A DNA stretch of 21,218 bases, taken from positions 1 through 21,218 of IMG/VR virus record IMGVR_UViG_3300015368_000132; one strand, written 5' to 3'. The notes under the pieces were generated by a model. The model was not told where the DNA came from and ran no database searches. It saw nothing but the letters and a program-made list of their open reading frames with translations. Source of the stretch: a virus. Both the position numbers and the translations under genes were made by a program. Shown one piece after another: positions 4,961 through 13,845 of the stretch. The stretch's first letter is position 1. Every line of letters begins with the position of its first letter.

Positions 4961-6808
4961 ATGGGTTCCAAGGGCAGCCAACAGAAAACCGAACAAACCA
5001 GCACCGCGACAAGCGCGCCTAACGCGCAAGCGGGGGCGTTGTACGGCGATATTCTCAACCAGTTGCAGGGTTATGTTCAGCAAAACCAGAATGCCCCGGT
5101 TTATGGTGGGGAGCGGGTAGCGCAGTTCACGCCGGACCAGTTGGCCGCCATGGGCACGGTCAATCAGGCTCAGGGGGCTTATCAGCCCTACATGCAGCAG
5201 GCGGGACAGTTCGCGCAGCAGGCGGGTTCGGCGATTACGCCGGGCCAGATTAACGCCGCGATGAACCCGTATCAGCAGCAGGTCATCGACGCCACAATGG
5301 CTCAGATGGGCCAGAAGAACGCCCAACAGATGTCCTCTCTGAAGGGCACAGAGGCGCAGCAGGGCGCTTTTGGCGGTTCGCGGGCGGCGGTCACGGAGGC
5401 AAATCTTGGCGGTCAGCAGAATATGAATATGGCCTCGACGCTGGCCGGACTGAACAATCAAAACTATACGCAGGCCGTTGCACAGGCTCAGGCTAACCGT
5501 GCGGCTGCGGGCACCGGCGCGCAGTTGGAATCCGGTCTCGGTACACAGTCGATGCAGCTTCCATTTATGGGTGCCCAGGCTCAGTTGCAAACGGGCGCGC
5601 AACAGCAGCAACTCGCGCAACAGAACTTAGACGTGCCATATCAGAATTTCTTGCAGCAGCAAGCTTGGACGCCGCAGATGCTCCAGTTTGAGGCTGGTCT
5701 CGGCACGGGCGTTGGTTCTCAGATGGGCGGCACCACGACCAATACTGGTCAGACCACTACTACGCCAGCGCAGCCTAATCCGTGGATGCAAGGACTGGGG
5801 CTGGCAACATCTATTGCCGCAATGCCTGTTACTGGCGGCGGGTCGCTATTTGGCAACTACTTATCGTCCGACAAACGCGCCAAAGAAAACATTGAGCCGG
5901 TTGGTCATCTAAACGACGGCCAGAAAATCTACAAATACAATTACAAGGGCGACCCCCATACTCAGATAGGGTTGATTGCTCAAGAGGTCGAACGCAAACA
6001 CCCTGAAGCCGTCGGTGAATCAAACGGCCTTAAGACTGTTAATTACGATTTGGCGACTAGAAATGCCGTCCACAAAGCCGATGGCGGCAGTGTCGGCAGC
6101 GATATCGTCGGCAATGCGGTGCGTATGGCCCGGCAAATGCGGGAGGGCATGGCGGGGGGCGGCGTGCCCGGCGCTGGCGTTGGTACCGGCGAGTATATGG
6201 GCCATAAGATACCGGCCATTATCCCAACGTCGCAAATGGCAATGGGCAAGGGTGCCCCCAGCACGCCGGGGTTTGTGTCGTCGCCGGAGATGAAAGATCC
6301 GAATGCTGGCCTTATGAAAGGGCTTGGATCTGGATTGGGAACGCTCGCCAAAGCCGGGTATGACAAGTGGAATAAAACACCAGAACCATACACACCCCCT
6401 GCCGGGATGGACGAAACTGGTGGTTTTGGGTATGAGACGCCGCTTAAATCCCTCGGCGGCACGGTATCGCCGGAATCGGCCTATCATGGCTTTGCGCACA
6501 GGGCATATGGCGGCGATGTTGTTTTTGACCCAACGCCGATCAGCGAGCAGGGCGGTGAAGACCCCAACAAAGCCCCTGTAATGCCCCTTGAGGGCTTTAC
6601 GGACCAGCCGCCATCCATCGTGCCCGCCGGTGAGTTTAAGCCCTATGAGGCCCCGCCGCAGGCCGACGTTCCTATGCCCCGCCCGCGTCCTGAAAGCCTC
6701 CGGGTTAACGACTTCGCTGCCGCCGCGCCGGCGCCTATTGGGGCCGACGCTGAGGCCCTTGTTCCTATCCCACGGCCGCCCCGCCCAAACTGCCGCCCAG
6801 CCAACTGA
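4961..6808 (+). CDS. Gln-rich virion protein with internal S74-type autoprocessing chaperone domain
   Basis: Starting at the ATG one base after the GNAT stop, this frame encodes 615 residues. Residues 1-290 are unusually rich in Gln, Ala and Gly (QQQ, AQAQ, QAGQFAQQAG) and likely helical. At 303-308 the sequence SDKRAK begins a short S74/intramolecular chaperone domain that runs to about 370 (ENIEPVGHLNDGQKIYKYNYKG, TQIGLIAQEVERKHPEAV, VNYDLAT). The Ser303/Lys308 spacing matches the Ser-Lys dyad described for endosialidase self-cleavage. S74 domains are normally C-terminal; here another 240 residues follow (Gly/Pro-rich, KADGGSV, RAYGGDVVFD). The frame ends in PRPPRPN just before the transglycosylase domain appears in the next frame, so this is probably the front half of one frameshifted product. 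Confidence 0.75.
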   Translation: MGSKGSQQKTEQTSTATSAPNAQAGALYGDILNQLQGYVQQNQNAPVYGGERVAQFTPDQLAAMGTVNQAQGAYQPYMQQAGQFAQQAGSAITPGQINAAMNPYQQQVIDATMAQMGQKNAQQMSSLKGTEAQQGAFGGSRAAVTEANLGGQQNMNMASTLAGLNNQNYTQAVAQAQANRAAAGTGAQLESGLGTQSMQLPFMGAQAQLQTGAQQQQLAQQNLDVPYQNFLQQQAWTPQMLQFEAGLGTGVGSQMGGTTTNTGQTTTTPAQPNPWMQGLGLATSIAAMPVTGGGSLFGNYLSSDKRAKENIEPVGHLNDGQKIYKYNYKGDPHTQIGLIAQEVERKHPEAVGESNGLKTVNYDLATRNAVHKADGGSVGSDIVGNAVRMARQMREGMAGGGVPGAGVGTGEYMGHKIPAIIPTSQMAMGKGAPSTPGFVSSPEMKDPNAGLMKGLGSGLGTLAKAGYDKWNKTPEPYTPPAGMDETGGFGYETPLKSLGGTVSPESAYHGFAHRAYGGDVVFDPTPISEQGGEDPNKAPVMPLEGFTDQPPSIVPAGEFKPYEAPPQADVPMPRPRPESLRVNDFAAAAPAPIGADAEALVPIPRPPRPNCRPAN

Positions 6809-8558
6809 CGACATATTCCCCCGGTTGCTCAGAACCGAAAGCACCGGCCGCCAACTTGATGAAAATGGCAACCCGCTGACGTCGCCCAAGGGCGCGATCG
6901 GCATTGCTCAAATCATGCCGAAAACCGGCCCAGAAGCCGCCAAACTGGCCGGGTTACCTTGGGACGAACAGAGGTTCAAATACGACGCCAATTACAACGC
7001 CGCCCTCGGCAAGGCTTATTTTGACCATCAGACCAAAGTATTCGGCGGCGACCCGGAAAAGGGTGCGGCTGCGTACAACGCCGGTCCCGGCAGGTTGCGG
7101 GAGGCTATGGCAATGGCCGCAGCCCATGGCGGGTCGTATAAGGATTACCTGCCAGCCGAAACACAGAACTACCTCGGCAAAATATTCGGTCAACAGCAGG
7201 CTGATGTAGAATTGCCTCCCAATGCTAGGCCAACAGCGTATACGGGGGGAGTAAATGAGCCGATTTCTCAAGACGTTAGCAATCAATACGCACCCTTCGT
7301 TGACCCGCGTGAGGAAAAAATCGCAGAAGGCATGGCCGGCGAGGCCGTTAAAGGCGCCAATACCCCCACGCAACTGGCGCAGAACCTTTCAATTCTTGAG
7401 CGGGTGCTAGGCAAGGAATTCGACCCGGCAACGCGGCAAGCCATCATGGCCGCTGGCCTGCGCATGATGACAACCCCCGGCAATATCGGCACCGTTCTCG
7501 GCACCGCCGGTATGCAGGGCATGGCGACGTATAGCGAAGCCAAGCAGATGGAGCAGGCGCAGGATGAAGCGCGGAGAAAACAAGCGTTTGAACGAGAGAA
7601 GTTTGAGCGGCCATACGAGCGAATGACGGCGCAACAGAAAGCCGAGTCAGGACTAAAACCATATCGTATTGGCGCGGATGGTAAACTTGAACCTACACCG
7701 GGCGGTTCTGCTGATCCGGCTACTGTCAGATCACTAGCTGAAGCAAAAGTACCACCAAGTTCAATGTCTCCGCAATCGTTGGAAGTTTCCGCAGACGTGT
7801 ACCGCATGACTGGCAGACTTCCGCCCAACATGGGCAGAGGTATCCAGGGTAATCAAGAAGCAGCCATAATCAGAAACCGCGCCGCTGAAAAAGAACAAGA
7901 TGCGGGCGGCGATCCCGCAGATTGGGCAGATCGCTGGCAACAATTCGGCACGCGCGCAACTGGATTACGTACATTAGAAACTCGTGCCGCTGGCCTGACG
8001 CTTGCCGAAAATGAGGCGCATGCGTTGGTGCCTCGTGTGCGAGAGTTGCTTGGCACAGTAAATCGCACGCGTTTTCCTGACCTGAACAAACTCATTATTG
8101 CTGGTCAAACCAAAACTGGAAACGAAAATGAAATTAAACTTGGCATCGCCATCGGCAGTTTAATTCCAGTGTACGCACGAGTTCTGAAGCCCGTCGGGCA
8201 AGTTGGTCAGACCGATATGGCTAATGCTCAACATCTGCTGGAACAGAAGTGGGCAACTGGCCAAATGGGCGCCGCGCTCGATCAATTTGAGGTAGAGCTA
8301 CACTCCGCGAAAGACGCATTGGCTCAGGCGCGCAAGGAGTATGGCGCAAGTGGACCATCGCTCCCCGGAAGACCTGAAAAGAAGGCAGAAACGCCACCCC
8401 CTGCTAATCCCGCCGCGCCGACTGCTGAGACTAGAATCCCGCCCCGTCCCGCATCTTTGGCGGGAATTAAGTTGAAGTATGATCCAAGCAAAAACCATTT
8501 TGTTGCCCCGGATGGCGCTCGATATGATGCTTCTGGCAAGCCAGTAGGAGGTCCGTAA
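6645..8558 (+). CDS. Lytic transglycosylase (SLT) / internal virion protein, likely downstream half of a frameshifted gene
   Basis: The recognisable protein begins near 6785. LLRTESTGRQ carries the catalytic Glu (codon 6837-6839) of the SLT lysozyme-like fold, followed by SPKGAIGIAQIMPKT and AAYNAGPGRL, the usual GxxQ and NAGxG motifs. It should cut peptidoglycan, probably as an ejected protein opening a path for phage DNA. The remaining ~520 residues are helical (a Glu/Arg/Gln-rich segment at 7540-7640, RLPPNMGRGIQGNQEAAIIRNRAAE) and end in a Pro-rich tail and NHFVAPDGARYDASGKPVG. The only ATG before the catalytic Glu is at 6645 (a TTG lies at 6588), and the peptide it would add is Arg/Pro-rich noise from the overlapping gene. 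A separate start therefore looks unlikely. It ends 1 nt before the next ATG. Confidence 0.75.
   Translation: MRPRRRPTFLCPARVLKASGLTTSLPPRRRLLGPTLRPLFLSHGRPAQTAAQPTDDIFPRLLRTESTGRQLDENGNPLTSPKGAIGIAQIMPKTGPEAAKLAGLPWDEQRFKYDANYNAALGKAYFDHQTKVFGGDPEKGAAAYNAGPGRLREAMAMAAAHGGSYKDYLPAETQNYLGKIFGQQQADVELPPNARPTAYTGGVNEPISQDVSNQYAPFVDPREEKIAEGMAGEAVKGANTPTQLAQNLSILERVLGKEFDPATRQAIMAAGLRMMTTPGNIGTVLGTAGMQGMATYSEAKQMEQAQDEARRKQAFEREKFERPYERMTAQQKAESGLKPYRIGADGKLEPTPGGSADPATVRSLAEAKVPPSSMSPQSLEVSADVYRMTGRLPPNMGRGIQGNQEAAIIRNRAAEKEQDAGGDPADWADRWQQFGTRATGLRTLETRAAGLTLAENEAHALVPRVRELLGTVNRTRFPDLNKLIIAGQTKTGNENEIKLGIAIGSLIPVYARVLKPVGQVGQTDMANAQHLLEQKWATGQMGAALDQFEVELHSAKDALAQARKEYGASGPSLPGRPEKKAETPPPANPAAPTAETRIPPRPASLAGIKLKYDPSKNHFVAPDGARYDASGKPVGGP
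6769..6808 (+). other. Candidate +1 frameshift joining the S74 and transglycosylase frames
   Basis: The upstream frame reads LVPIPRPPRPNCRPAN and stops at 6806-6808. The downstream frame becomes protein-like at about 6775 (GRPAQTAAQPTDDIF). The switch is one nucleotide forward, within a C/G-rich run that includes CCCC at 6779-6782 and CCC at 6784-6786. Removing one C from this run would give a single ORF of about 1199 codons (4961-8558). The cause could be an assembly or sequencing error, a real mutation, or a programmed +1 shift; the sequence alone does not decide. Confidence 0.55.
8546..8551 (+). promoter_or_regulatory. Strong ribosome binding site of the polyvalent protein gene
   Basis: AGGAGG lies 8 nt before the ATG at 8560. 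It is inside the last codons of the transglycosylase gene and is the clearest Shine-Dalgarno site on the plus strand, consistent with high expression of the 1761-aa protein. Confidence 0.75.
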
Positions 8559-8559
8559 T

Positions 8560-11500
8560 ATGGCAGACAATTTGATCGATGTTCCTGACGACAATTTGAT
8601 CGATGTTTCGGATACTAATTTAGTTGACGTTCCGAAGGAATCTACGGCGCAGCCAGCGCTGACGGCTCAACAACGCTATCATCAATCTTTGAAAGGGTAC
8701 CATGATCAGGGGACTGAAAATCCTGACGTTGCCCCGGGCTATGTTTCTCCTGAAACTTCCAAGGCGTTTGCGGAAGCTAAATCAAACACCTCATCACTCG
8801 GATCGCAATGGGGCGACGTTGGAACCGGTGCTGCAAAGGGCCTAGCCGGCGGGATTTTTGGGGGTTTTGTTGGTGACATTGAATCTTTTGGCAGGCTTCC
8901 TTTTCAAATTCCAGGCGTCCGAGAATATATAGCTGATGTTTCTCCACATACCGTTATTCCGACGTCTGAAGAGGGCGGATATTTAGGCCCACGCGGCCTT
9001 GGCGCATTTAACGCGCCTGAAACTCCGGAAGAAAAAGGCGGCGTTTTTACAGGATCTTTGTTAACCCCATTCGCTGCGACTGCACCACTCAAGGCGCTGA
9101 GAGGTGCGAGCAAGCTTTCTTCATCTGCTGCTGAGATTGCTAACGCCGCTGAACGTCAAGGGATTAGTATTCCACGAGCTGCAGTTACAGACAACCGTGA
9201 AATGCAAACTGCTGCTGGGTATCTGAAAGAGATTCCATTTGTAGGAACTCCGCTCGTAAAAGCCTCCGAGAAAGCATTGAGTGAAATTGAAGATCTTTCA
9301 GACCGAACAGTTTCCGCGCTTGGAAGCGGCAACAAACTGCGTGCCGGAGACATTGCTTCTGATGCAATTGAGGGGTGGGTCACTGGCAAAAGCAAAACAA
9401 TAGCCACAAAACTATATGACGCAGTTGACCCGTTAGTTAATCCAGAATTCACTCGCCCATTGTTTGAGACAAAAAAGGTGGCAAACGAAATTGCCGCCAA
9501 GCGCGCGAATGCAAAAATTTCAGGAGATAGTCCGGCAATCAGAGAGATTGAAGATGCATTGGCATCTCCGGGAATGAATTATAACGGCGTCAAAGACTTG
9601 CGCACATATATTCGAGAGATGACACCGCAAGAAATGGTTGCAAAAAACATCAACAAGAATGAAGCAAAAATAATTTACGACGCCTTAACCACCGATCTTC
9701 GTGCGACGATACTTGATGCTGGTGGTCCCGATGCGCTGAAAAAGTTCGATAAAGCGAACGATGTTTATAACATTATTGCAGATCGCAGAGCCAGTATTGC
9801 CAAGGTAATTGGCGTAAGCGCCGACGCTGCCCCGGAGAAAGTTATTGATAGAATTACAGCAATGGCAGGAAATGCCGGATCGGCTGATTACCAAACACTT
9901 CAAAAAGTTCGCAAGTCAATTGGTCCAAAGTCTTGGGACGAGGTATCGTCTGCAATTCTCGCAAAAATGGGGCGTGCCAATCCGGAGGCTGCATTTAGCG
10001 CAGACCAATTTGTAACTGCGTGGAATAAACTTTCTCCCAGCAGCAAACAACTATTGTTCAATTCAACTAACCGCCCCGGAATAATAAATGATCTGAATGA
10101 CCTTGTGACGCTTTCAGGCGCACAAAAAAACCTAAGTAAATATGCGAACCCAAGTGGATCTGGCAAAATTGCAACGTTTGCAGCGATGATTCCAGCTATG
10201 TGGACTGCGCCGCTACCTACGATTGCTACAATCATTGGCGGAAGACAGATGGCAAAATTTTTTGCTTCTCCTATTGCAATCAAATCAACAGCGCAATGGG
10301 CAAAAGCCAATAATGCTGCATTCACAACTCCAAACATAATGACAACGGCAAGACTACTTTCTGCAAGTGACAATATAGCGAAAACCTTAAATCGAGAATT
10401 TGGCGGCAATTTTTCCGCAAAAGACTTCATACCGCCGGGTCAGGCCAACGAACCCCCCCGCGCCACGGGCGGCTCCGTGTTCGACAAGATGCACGCGGCT
10501 AAGCATATGCAAGAGGGTGGTGGGTTATCTTCTTTTCTTGAGGGAGAATACAGCGGCAATAAGGAAGGCCAGCATGGCGGAGGGTATTTAGGTATTGAAA
10601 GCCCTACAGGGAATGCAGGTATTGGTGGCCAAGGCTGGAGAGAGAATACACCGGAAGGACGCTTGGGCCGTGCTTCAATAACCAACGTTGACGTTGGTCA
10701 CAAAATAGGCGACCTGAACTTAACAGGGAGTTACAGAGCTAACCAGCGTGAGATTGCAAGGCCGCCGGCGGGAGACAATACTTATTTTGATCCGATAGAG
10801 CACTCTGGTCAAAAATTTCGCATGCCGAATGACATAGACAAGCGGTTTATGCTAGGGCTGTCAAAACAATTTTCTGACGGCGGCTCCGTGTTCGACAAGA
10901 TGCACGCGGCAAAGCATATGGCGGAGGGTGGCGGGACCGACGCCCCTTTTAACGAATGGGATGCCGTCCCGCGCAATGCCGAGGGCATCCCACAGATCAG
11001 GATTGAAAAGCCGCCAGTTAATGAGGCGGACGAAGCGCAGGCCGCGCGTGAGGCAGCCGCCGCTCGCGTTGCTGGCAACGTAAGGGGCGCACCATACGAG
11101 CCAACGCCGCCATCCACCGAAGGCAAGACGTGGATGATGGAGCCCGGCATGGAGGCCATGCTGTCTGGCAACTATGAGATGCCGCCAAATGTCCGACTAA
11201 ACGATGCTGGTATTCCGTACAACGTTGAGACCGGCGAAGAACTACAAATGGCTCGCCGTCCTAACGTCCTTCCTTTTACCAGAACGCCGGATGGTGTTCA
11301 GTGGGCCATGCCGAAGATCGCCGAGCTGGCGGGCGACATCCTTAACCCGTTGGCGGTTACCAAGGGCTTAGCTTTGAATCCCGGCGAGTTTGCTTTGGGG
11401 TCAGGGCCAATCCGCGCTTATCACGGCAGCCCGCACGATTTCGACAAGTTTGATCTAGCCAAGATCGGAACAGGCGAGGGCGCGCAGGCTTACGGGCATG

Positions 11501-13845
11501 GGCTGTATTTTGCGGAGAACCCAAAAGTAGCGGAAACATATAAAGCACCTGCTGGCGTTATTGCCAAAGCACCGCAGGGATGGGTACAGGACACTGCGAG
11601 CAACTTTATTAGTGAGCATGGAAAGGAAGGCGCTCAAAAAGTATTAACAGACTTGATGAGTAAGTCTCCCGAAATGAAGGCAACATTTTCTGATGTTCTC
11701 GCAGCCGTAAAAAATTCAAAACCTTTGGGGAAGATGTATGAAGTCGAGTTAAATGCCAACCCTGAGCATTTTTTAGATTGGGATAAGCCATTGGCAAAGC
11801 AGGGCAGCGCGCTAGATCAGAAATTATACGATTTGCTCGGTAATAGCGGAATTAGCAAAGCCGAAACGAATTTCATTATTAACAATAAAACCGGTCAAGA
11901 TGTTGTTAGGAGAATAGCAAAACCATCTTATCCAATACGCGATACGGTTAGCGAGCCTTGGCGTGCGTCAGGTGCAGGTTCTTTAGATGAGGCATTAGGG
12001 ATGGTTGGTGGCGATAAAAAGAGAGTAAATACAGTCCTTACCCCAAACCCTGCTTACACCTCGCAGTCATTGAACGAAGTAGGAATCCCCGGTATCAAAT
12101 ACCTAGACCAAGGTTCGCGCGCAGCCGGTGACGGATCGCGCAACTACGTCGTGTTCGACCCCAAGATAATCCAGATCATGAAGAAGTACGGCATGACGCT
12201 TCCAGCGGCTACCGCTGCATACGAAGCCATGAAGTCCAATCAAGAAAAGACCGGATTTAAAAAGGGCGGCTCCGTGTTTGACAAGATGCATATGGCGCGC
12301 AAGCGAGCGGAGGGTGGCGGGACCGACGCCCCTTTTAACGAATGGGATGCCGTCCCGCGCAATGCCGAGGGCATCCCACAGATCAGGATTGAAAAGCCGC
12401 CAGTTAATGAGGCGGACGAAGCGCAGGCCGCGCGTGAGGCAGCCGCCGCTCGCGTTGCTGGCAACGTAAGGGGCGCACCATACGAGCCAACGCCGCCATC
12501 CACCGAAGGCAAGACGTGGATGATGGAGCCCGGCATGGAGGCCATGCTGTCTGGCAACTATGAGATGCCGCCAAATGTCCGACTAAACGATGCTGGTATT
12601 CCGTACAACGTTGAGACCGGCGAAGAACTACAAATGGCTCGCCGTCCTAACGTCCTTCCTTTTACCAGAACGCCGGATGGTGTTCAGTGGGCCATGCCGA
12701 AGATCGCCGAGCTGGCGGGCGACATCCTTAACCCGTTGGCGGTTACCAAGGGCTTAGCTTTGAATCCCGGCGAGTTTGCTTTGGGGTCAGGGCCTATCAA
12801 GAGTGACCCTAAGCTATGGCATGGTATTTCAAAAATAAAATTGCCAAAACCTATTTCTGAAATGAATGCAACACGGTCTCCTATTGCGGAAATAGCAGAA
12901 AAACAAATAGTTCCATCTGATCTTCAGGGTGGGTTACTTCTTCCAGCTATTGGGGATAGATCAATAGCCAACGCAAATTTACATGGGTTCAACGGATATA
13001 AATTTGAAGAACCAGTGCCAATGCAAGGAGGCCACGGCTTTATGGCCGCCAACGCTGACAAAGATGTTGCATGGGCATCAGGAAGCCCCGTTATAGGGCG
13101 CATTGCTAGTGATGTTAGAAAATTAAATGAAAGCGGAAACCCTATTTACTTTCCGTATACAGCGATGGGCGAGAGGTCTGTAGACTTTTCACATCATATT
13201 TCTTCAACTCTTGCTGAAGCTTTGAAACAACAACCGTTGACTAGAAATGCTGAACGGCAATTTAACGCTGCAATGAAATCAGATGCTGGATCATTTGGTG
13301 CAGTTAAAAATTGGCCGGGTGTAAACTCACCTTATCTTAAGGACTATCTTCTTTCGTCAAAAGGCGACGTAAGAAATAAATTTGCCAAATTAATGGATAC
13401 AAATAATTTTCAATCTCTTGGTTTTCCAAATGTTGCTGAAGCAAGATTTGCAGTAACTGATCCAAGATTGCTCAACGCTCCTACCGGAGCTGCTGGCATA
13501 TCTGTATCAAAATTAGACCCGTCAGGAAAAATTTTGAAAGATGTATCCGGTCATTTAACTTATGACACAGATTTGGGCGGGAAATATGTTGGGGGTCTGG
13601 GGCGATCAATTCCAAAAGAAGTTTTCTACCCTGACCTTCTTTCTGCATATAAAAAACTAAATTATGAGCCGTTTCAATATGATTATTTAATGTCAAGAGG
13701 AGTTACTGGGGCACCTAGAGCACAAAAAGCAAACCAAAAATGGGTTGATAATGTTTCAAAATGGATTGAAAAAAATCCAAAAGAAGAAACTAAATTTAAT
13801 TCCGGCGGCTCCGTGTTCGACAAAATGAAAAGAGCATCAAAATGA
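8560..13845 (+). CDS. 1761-aa modular polyvalent phage protein with ADP-ribosyltransferase-like cargo
   Basis: An N-terminal ejection-protein-like block (about 60-636) has Gly-rich helices, ERQGISIPRAAVTDNREMQ, long helical stretches and a hydrophobic segment near 540-575 (IATFAAMIPAMW); it resembles internal or DNA-transfer proteins of related phages. A GGSVFDKM linker then recurs at 637, 774, 1236 and 1749. Between linkers lie a 118-aa beta-rich piece (656-773), a 163-aa repeat (788-950) followed by an ART-PolyVal-like domain (951-1230), and the same repeat again (1250-1412) followed by an unidentified domain (1413-1748). The ART-like part has YHGSPHDFDKFDL (His955), GHGLYFAEN (Tyr983) and NYVVFDPKII (Asn1195), plus GIPGIKYLDQGSR, typical of the ADP-ribosyltransferases of large polyvalent proteins. 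The N-terminus holds three NLIDV-type repeats. A likely role is a virion-carried, ejected effector; that is inferred from position and domains. Confidence 0.8.
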   Translation: MADNLIDVPDDNLIDVSDTNLVDVPKESTAQPALTAQQRYHQSLKGYHDQGTENPDVAPGYVSPETSKAFAEAKSNTSSLGSQWGDVGTGAAKGLAGGIFGGFVGDIESFGRLPFQIPGVREYIADVSPHTVIPTSEEGGYLGPRGLGAFNAPETPEEKGGVFTGSLLTPFAATAPLKALRGASKLSSSAAEIANAAERQGISIPRAAVTDNREMQTAAGYLKEIPFVGTPLVKASEKALSEIEDLSDRTVSALGSGNKLRAGDIASDAIEGWVTGKSKTIATKLYDAVDPLVNPEFTRPLFETKKVANEIAAKRANAKISGDSPAIREIEDALASPGMNYNGVKDLRTYIREMTPQEMVAKNINKNEAKIIYDALTTDLRATILDAGGPDALKKFDKANDVYNIIADRRASIAKVIGVSADAAPEKVIDRITAMAGNAGSADYQTLQKVRKSIGPKSWDEVSSAILAKMGRANPEAAFSADQFVTAWNKLSPSSKQLLFNSTNRPGIINDLNDLVTLSGAQKNLSKYANPSGSGKIATFAAMIPAMWTAPLPTIATIIGGRQMAKFFASPIAIKSTAQWAKANNAAFTTPNIMTTARLLSASDNIAKTLNREFGGNFSAKDFIPPGQANEPPRATGGSVFDKMHAAKHMQEGGGLSSFLEGEYSGNKEGQHGGGYLGIESPTGNAGIGGQGWRENTPEGRLGRASITNVDVGHKIGDLNLTGSYRANQREIARPPAGDNTYFDPIEHSGQKFRMPNDIDKRFMLGLSKQFSDGGSVFDKMHAAKHMAEGGGTDAPFNEWDAVPRNAEGIPQIRIEKPPVNEADEAQAAREAAAARVAGNVRGAPYEPTPPSTEGKTWMMEPGMEAMLSGNYEMPPNVRLNDAGIPYNVETGEELQMARRPNVLPFTRTPDGVQWAMPKIAELAGDILNPLAVTKGLALNPGEFALGSGPIRAYHGSPHDFDKFDLAKIGTGEGAQAYGHGLYFAENPKVAETYKAPAGVIAKAPQGWVQDTASNFISEHGKEGAQKVLTDLMSKSPEMKATFSDVLAAVKNSKPLGKMYEVELNANPEHFLDWDKPLAKQGSALDQKLYDLLGNSGISKAETNFIINNKTGQDVVRRIAKPSYPIRDTVSEPWRASGAGSLDEALGMVGGDKKRVNTVLTPNPAYTSQSLNEVGIPGIKYLDQGSRAAGDGSRNYVVFDPKIIQIMKKYGMTLPAATAAYEAMKSNQEKTGFKKGGSVFDKMHMARKRAEGGGTDAPFNEWDAVPRNAEGIPQIRIEKPPVNEADEAQAAREAAAARVAGNVRGAPYEPTPPSTEGKTWMMEPGMEAMLSGNYEMPPNVRLNDAGIPYNVETGEELQMARRPNVLPFTRTPDGVQWAMPKIAELAGDILNPLAVTKGLALNPGEFALGSGPIKSDPKLWHGISKIKLPKPISEMNATRSPIAEIAEKQIVPSDLQGGLLLPAIGDRSIANANLHGFNGYKFEEPVPMQGGHGFMAANADKDVAWASGSPVIGRIASDVRKLNESGNPIYFPYTAMGERSVDFSHHISSTLAEALKQQPLTRNAERQFNAAMKSDAGSFGAVKNWPGVNSPYLKDYLLSSKGDVRNKFAKLMDTNNFQSLGFPNVAEARFAVTDPRLLNAPTGAAGISVSKLDPSGKILKDVSGHLTYDTDLGGKYVGGLGRSIPKEVFYPDLLSAYKKLNYEPFQYDYLMSRGVTGAPRAQKANQKWVDNVSKWIEKNPKEETKFNSGGSVFDKMKRASK
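8566..8637 (+). repeat. Three 24-bp tandem repeats encoding (D/T)N-L-(I/V)-D-V-(P/S)-x
   Basis: Units at 8566-8589, 8590-8613 and 8614-8637 encode DNLIDVPD, DNLIDVSD and TNLVDVPK directly after Met-Ala. The first two units are nearly identical in DNA; the third has diverged at silent and conservative positions. Short acidic/aliphatic repeats at this position recall N-terminal tags seen on other large phage proteins; a packaging or docking signal is a guess. Confidence 0.8.
10468..10524 (+). repeat. Linker motif copy 1 (GGSVFDKMHAAKHMQEGGG)
   Basis: Residues 637-655 of the 1761-aa protein. The first 32 nt are identical to copy 2. It marks the end of the N-terminal ejection-like block and the start of the 118-aa beta-rich piece. 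Confidence 0.85.
10879..10935 (+). repeat. Linker motif copy 2 (GGSVFDKMHAAKHMAEGGG)
   Basis: Residues 774-792. Its last 15 nt belong to the first copy of the 488-bp direct repeat. It precedes the cassette that ends in the ADP-ribosyltransferase-like domain. Confidence 0.85.
10921..11408 (+). repeat. 488-bp exact direct repeat, copy 1
   Basis: Compared base by base with 12307-12794, I find no difference over 488 nt (offset 1386). The repeat encodes residues 788-950: AEGGGTDAPFNEWDAVPRN, an Ala/Glu-rich helix, MMEPGMEAMLSGNYEMPPNV and VLPFTRTPDGVQWAMPKIAE, ending at ALGSGP. It is GC-rich (43 of 60 bases in 11041-11100). The domain just downstream of this copy is the ART-like one. Confidence 0.95.
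12265..12321 (+). repeat. Linker motif copy 3 (GGSVFDKMHMARKRAEGGG)
   Basis: Residues 1236-1254. The core GGSVFDKMH is kept while the middle has changed (MARKR for AAKHM). Its last 15 nt are the start of the second 488-bp repeat copy. Confidence 0.85.
12307..12794 (+). repeat. 488-bp exact direct repeat, copy 2
   Basis: Identical to 10921-11408 and encodes residues 1250-1412. Identity stops abruptly on both sides: the preceding bases differ (linker variants) and position 12795 onward enters a different, AT-rich domain. Perfect identity with no silent change implies recent duplication or ongoing gene conversion. Confidence 0.95.
13804..13845 (+). repeat. Linker motif copy 4, C-terminal (GGSVFDKMKRASK)
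   Basis: The last residues of the 1761-aa protein (1749-1761). The 20-nt core GGCGGCTCCGTGTTCGACAA matches copies 1 and 2 exactly, but the gene ends here, as if a further cassette could be attached. Confidence 0.8.

Follow-up and report, generated by a model that had tools for sequence, protein, structure and literature searches.

The metagenomic record IMGVR_UViG_3300015368_000132, a single environmental virus sequence of 21,218 bases, was analysed over its whole length (hereafter, the window), and its positions 4961-8558 most likely represent a single gene, which encodes a virion protein of ~1,200 residues and whose reading frame has been broken in a linker by a net insertion or deletion of one base that is not programmed (probability about 0.88). 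From the N-terminus, such a gene would encode an ejection-type domain, an S74 domain, a proline-rich linker, an SLT domain and a C-terminal region, and in the record analysed here the frame would be lost within the linker. The frame break is present in the sequence and is not a chance effect. That the two frames on either side of it are halves of a single gene, separated by a +1 offset in the linker, appears well supported by an unbroken homologue of 1199 aa in a close relative, six further fused relatives, codon statistics and substitution patterns. An earlier note on this DNA had proposed the same split gene, and these lines of evidence bear it out.

The upstream part of the gene (4961-6808, + strand) is an open reading frame that comprises the ejection-type N-terminal domain, the S74 domain and some 240 residues leading to the proline-rich linker. 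Its frame (coordinate mod 3 = 2) contains no stop between 4946 and the TGA at 6806-6808, with an ATG at 4961. The N-terminal domain corresponds to PHROG 4287, "DNA ejection protein" (E 6.5e-31), and the S74 (endosialidase-chaperone) domain, PF13884 in Pfam (E 3.5e-8), lies at approximately 5864-6053 (+). The downstream part (6810-8558, +) is formed by the SLT lytic transglycosylase domain, in the C-terminal half of the protein, and the C-terminal region. The SLT domain, at about 6810-7190 (+), was detected as PF01464 in Pfam (E 5.4e-12), and this part also matches Slt70 in the PDB (1qsa, E 7.2e-8). The SLT frame (coordinate mod 3 = 0) is open over 6582-8558 and overlaps the S74 frame with a +1 offset, and the continuous reading frame of a fused ejection/SLT protein is broken in the present record. 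As had been noted earlier, the presumed catalytic Glu falls just past the upstream stop: read directly, the Glu of LLRTES is at 6837-6839, 29 nt after the TGA. For the C-terminal 448 residues (7212-8555) no relative was found in viral contigs, unlike the adjoining SLT domain, which has many. Further downstream, an open reading frame of 1761 aa (8560-13845) carries the same segment of at least 300 nt twice in direct orientation, with 100% identity between the copies, at 10921-11220 and 12307-12606 (1386 nt apart, in frame). An ART-PolyVal-like domain follows the first copy and a different C-terminal part follows the second, and the repeat would stem from a duplication in the very recent past, accompanied by domain exchange, or else from a misassembly.

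Profiles of the N-terminal domain, S74 and SLT were run over 115 loci, and the N-terminal and SLT domains were found in one closed frame in seven relatives (L001, L005, L019, L020, L031, L098, and L099). The closest of these, IMGVR_UViG_3300011115_000055 (L005), contains both parts in one frame of 1199 aa at about 86-91% nucleotide identity. An acetyltransferase-like gene lies directly upstream in both records, and the amino acid identity reaches 94% in the N-terminal domain and 91% in the SLT domain. Nonetheless, the gene of L005 is unbroken, its linker is 25 nt shorter at 6746-6805 and no S74 domain was detected in it. In phage MW202675.1 (L001) the N-terminal, S74 and SLT domains are likewise joined in a single annotated CDS of 1185 aa, "internal virion protein D", which is also preceded by an acetyltransferase gene; this protein is unbroken and only about 37-39% identical to the present one. 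An intact protein of ~1200 aa, which the earlier note suggested looking for in relatives, is present, at 1199 aa in L005 and 1185 aa in L001.

In the 115-locus survey, closed frames carrying both the N-terminal domain and S74 fell into two length classes, 344-380 aa and 1213 aa or more, with none near 615 aa; the upstream frame described here, of ~615 aa, belongs to neither length class. A split at the present position was found in none of the relatives examined. Two loci have split frames nearby with a different geometry, and no other locus places the SLT frame in the same way. A near-identical contig (L004, 99.4%) ends at 6558, short of the junction. When viral contigs were scanned by protein and by DNA for further copies of the junction, the only close relative covering it was the contig of L005, and no second broken copy was found in these scans, from which records very close to the present one may have been missing. 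Two candidates that matched the DNA pattern (L115 and L117) were rejected, having neither protein nor DNA similarity, and searches of phage and plasmid DNA returned at most a short SLT similarity to Bordetella phages.

Several additional aspects of these modules were observed in the survey. The S74 domain occurs in the present record and in L004, and not in the closely related L005 (about 5846-6050 here, compared with L005 6885-6901), which suggests that the domain has recently been gained or lost. Long proteins with a pair of S74 domains were detected in L006, L019, L021, L025, L038, L046, L047, L053, L056, and L087. S74 begins with a conserved S-D that is similar to the self-cleavage site of endosialidase chaperones, and from this likeness the two-S74 proteins might mature by self-cleavage. 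In a prophage-like region of a Hyphomicrobiales MAG (L111), the open reading frame of the N-terminal domain is also broken, into the adjoining frames 5279-5944 and 5944-6630.

The place at which the frame changes has been narrowed down by alignment and by codon usage. Alignment and repeat comparison delimit the proline-rich linker at 6668-6805 (+), with a VPxPRP motif occurring twice and encoded by DNA repeats at 6668-6682 and 6761-6775. Within it, alignment and codon likelihood together place the frame change in the interval 6746-6805 (+), which measures 60 nt here and 35 nt in L005; the 25 nt by which they differ (24 + 1) do not divide into whole codons. On either side the alignment is clean, to about 6748 and again from about 6800, and the other insertions and deletions between 6075 and 6745 all net to whole codons. 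Codon likelihoods, trained on the virus's own genes and scored in 60-nt steps, recovered the right frame in 100% of steps within the S74 part and 99% within the SLT part; they favour the S74 frame in each step until about 6779, beyond which the SLT frame is preferred. The maximum-likelihood switch falls at 6772, with alternatives within about 4 log units spanning 6757-6790, an interval that contains a C-rich run; overall, the codon signal places the switch at about 6757-6793. Over 6588-6778 the SLT frame scores a log-likelihood of -21.9, compared to +20.8 for the S74 frame. It is therefore anti-coding there, and the earlier view that starts at TTG 6588 or ATG 6645 would be read in antiphase to the real protein is upheld. 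Substitutions relative to L005 fall at third positions of the S74 frame in 7 of 14 cases over 6449-6745 and at third positions of the SLT frame in 15 of 30 over 6806-7211, while dN/dS is 0.18-0.37 before the break and 0.24-0.38 after it. This third-position bias, together with dN/dS below 0.4 on each side, indicates that both parts of the gene were under selection until recently.

The same data bear on whether S74 and SLT could belong to two genes, with the SLT protein starting independently at TTG 6759, or at a different start in the overlap, by translational coupling to the upstream frame, an arrangement that we consider highly improbable. A scan of starts and motifs revealed TTG 6759-6761 (+) in the SLT frame, upstream of the entire SLT domain and with GAGG 3 nt before it, as the only start ahead of that domain with a Shine-Dalgarno-like motif. 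The earlier statement that no plausible start lies between the frames was accordingly nearly right, having overlooked this one. Weak Shine-Dalgarno motifs also occur at other genes of this virus, and S74 and SLT/hydrolase genes are separate in other phages and in one of the surveyed loci (L103), all of which would be compatible with two genes. Yet the 3-nt gap is short, the fused gene of L005 has neither this TTG nor its motif, and the codon signal for the S74 frame continues to about 6779, so that a start at 6759 would sit inside that frame. As an independent start for SLT, this sole and weak candidate was rejected. The position of the break also differs from known gene boundaries. Where cultured phages have short S74 proteins, these terminate immediately behind the S74 domain and the neighbouring gene, often for a hydrolase, adjoins, whereas here the first frame ends ~240 residues later, at SLT. 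Sulfitobacter phage NYA-2014a and EBPR podovirus 2 illustrate this: a structural gene with S74 is directly followed by a peptidoglycan hydrolase gene, but these are two complete genes, the stop of one adjoining or overlapping the start of the other, and they are divided right after S74 and not within the linker that precedes SLT. Since the division of genes in the wider family lies ~240 codons upstream of the break, the case of relatives with two proteins and a clear start before SLT, which would have told against a single gene, does not apply at the present break.

A single gene could also be read through the offset by the ribosome. The earlier note had raised a programmed +1 shift setting the ratio of short and long virion proteins; at the C-run (CCC-CGC, 6779-6784), such a shift would yield mostly the ~615-aa S74 protein and few fusions. 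A proline-rich context may slow ribosomes, which counts in favour of this proposal, and CCC-C is genuinely slip-prone. In Escherichia coli, slippage at CCC-C placed at the second codon can amount to 1% (PMC4519876), and +1 shifts in the capsid and tail genes of Listeria phage PSA take place at CCC codons for proline (PMC5009743). The comparison with PSA cps and tsh is close in that structural genes and a CCC proline shift codon are involved; the known PSA sites, however, have an immediate stop or a pseudoknot beside the shift codon (PMC5009743), and here no stop adjoins the codon, the first lying 8 codons downstream of CCC 6779. Plain folding, which leaves out pseudoknots, gave no downstream RNA stimulator, the region folding no better than shuffled sequences (z -0.29 to -0.86). 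The genes of this virus contain 12 in-frame CCC-C sites, one of them at 6677 in the same gene, 102 nt upstream and with an identical next codon. Moreover, L005 makes the fusion unshifted and without the C-run, and neither the offset nor the shift site is conserved, the frame being continuous in L005 and the six other fused relatives. With no examined relative split at this place, the proposal is not supported, and a programmed shift is regarded as very unlikely. Very little probability is also given to a narrower version, by which the offset would be real in the living virus and slippage at the proline C-run, evolved in this lineage only, would yield a minority SLT fusion beside the short S74 protein.

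For a single gene broken by a non-programmed change of one base, the origin of that change can be considered separately. The probable source, with moderate confidence, is an error of sequencing or assembly, or else a consensus in which two strain variants with different linker lengths have been joined. A proline-rich linker with repeated VPxPRP that varies in length among close relatives would be prone both to real insertions and deletions and to faulty joins of strain variants. An error or chimaera is favoured over a fixed mutation given that the remainder of the gene is intact and that selection should act against a broken virion protein. Short C-runs are not known as strong error hotspots in Illumina reads, which would count against an error if the record came from that platform. 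A genuine mutation at the DNA level, recently fixed in the virus lineage as a loss of function or a gene fission, is judged rather unlikely. Variation in linker length even among close relatives indicates that insertions and deletions do occur there, and both halves are still intact, as a very recent break would predict. Against it, the fusion of hydrolase and ejection domains is likely of importance to infection, and broken genotypes would then be expected to be rare in the assembled population; the scans of viral contigs yielded only the present broken copy.

In domain content the protein is similar to ejection or internal virion proteins bearing a peptidoglycan hydrolase, such as gp16 of phage T7, and its probable role is to accompany the DNA into the cell envelope and cleave peptidoglycan. 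T7 gp16 is a virion ejection protein with a lytic transglycosylase domain, and hydrolase domains are known to be swapped among ejection proteins (PMC8954989). In gp16 the SLT domain is N-terminal and S74 is absent, and the likeness drawn here is one of domain content. The analysis corrects the gene model, with 4961-8558 to be annotated as a single interrupted gene, and removes a candidate programmed frameshift. As a by-product, it has been found that in related phages the N-terminal, S74 and SLT modules are in some cases fused and in others encoded by separate genes that lie next to each other.
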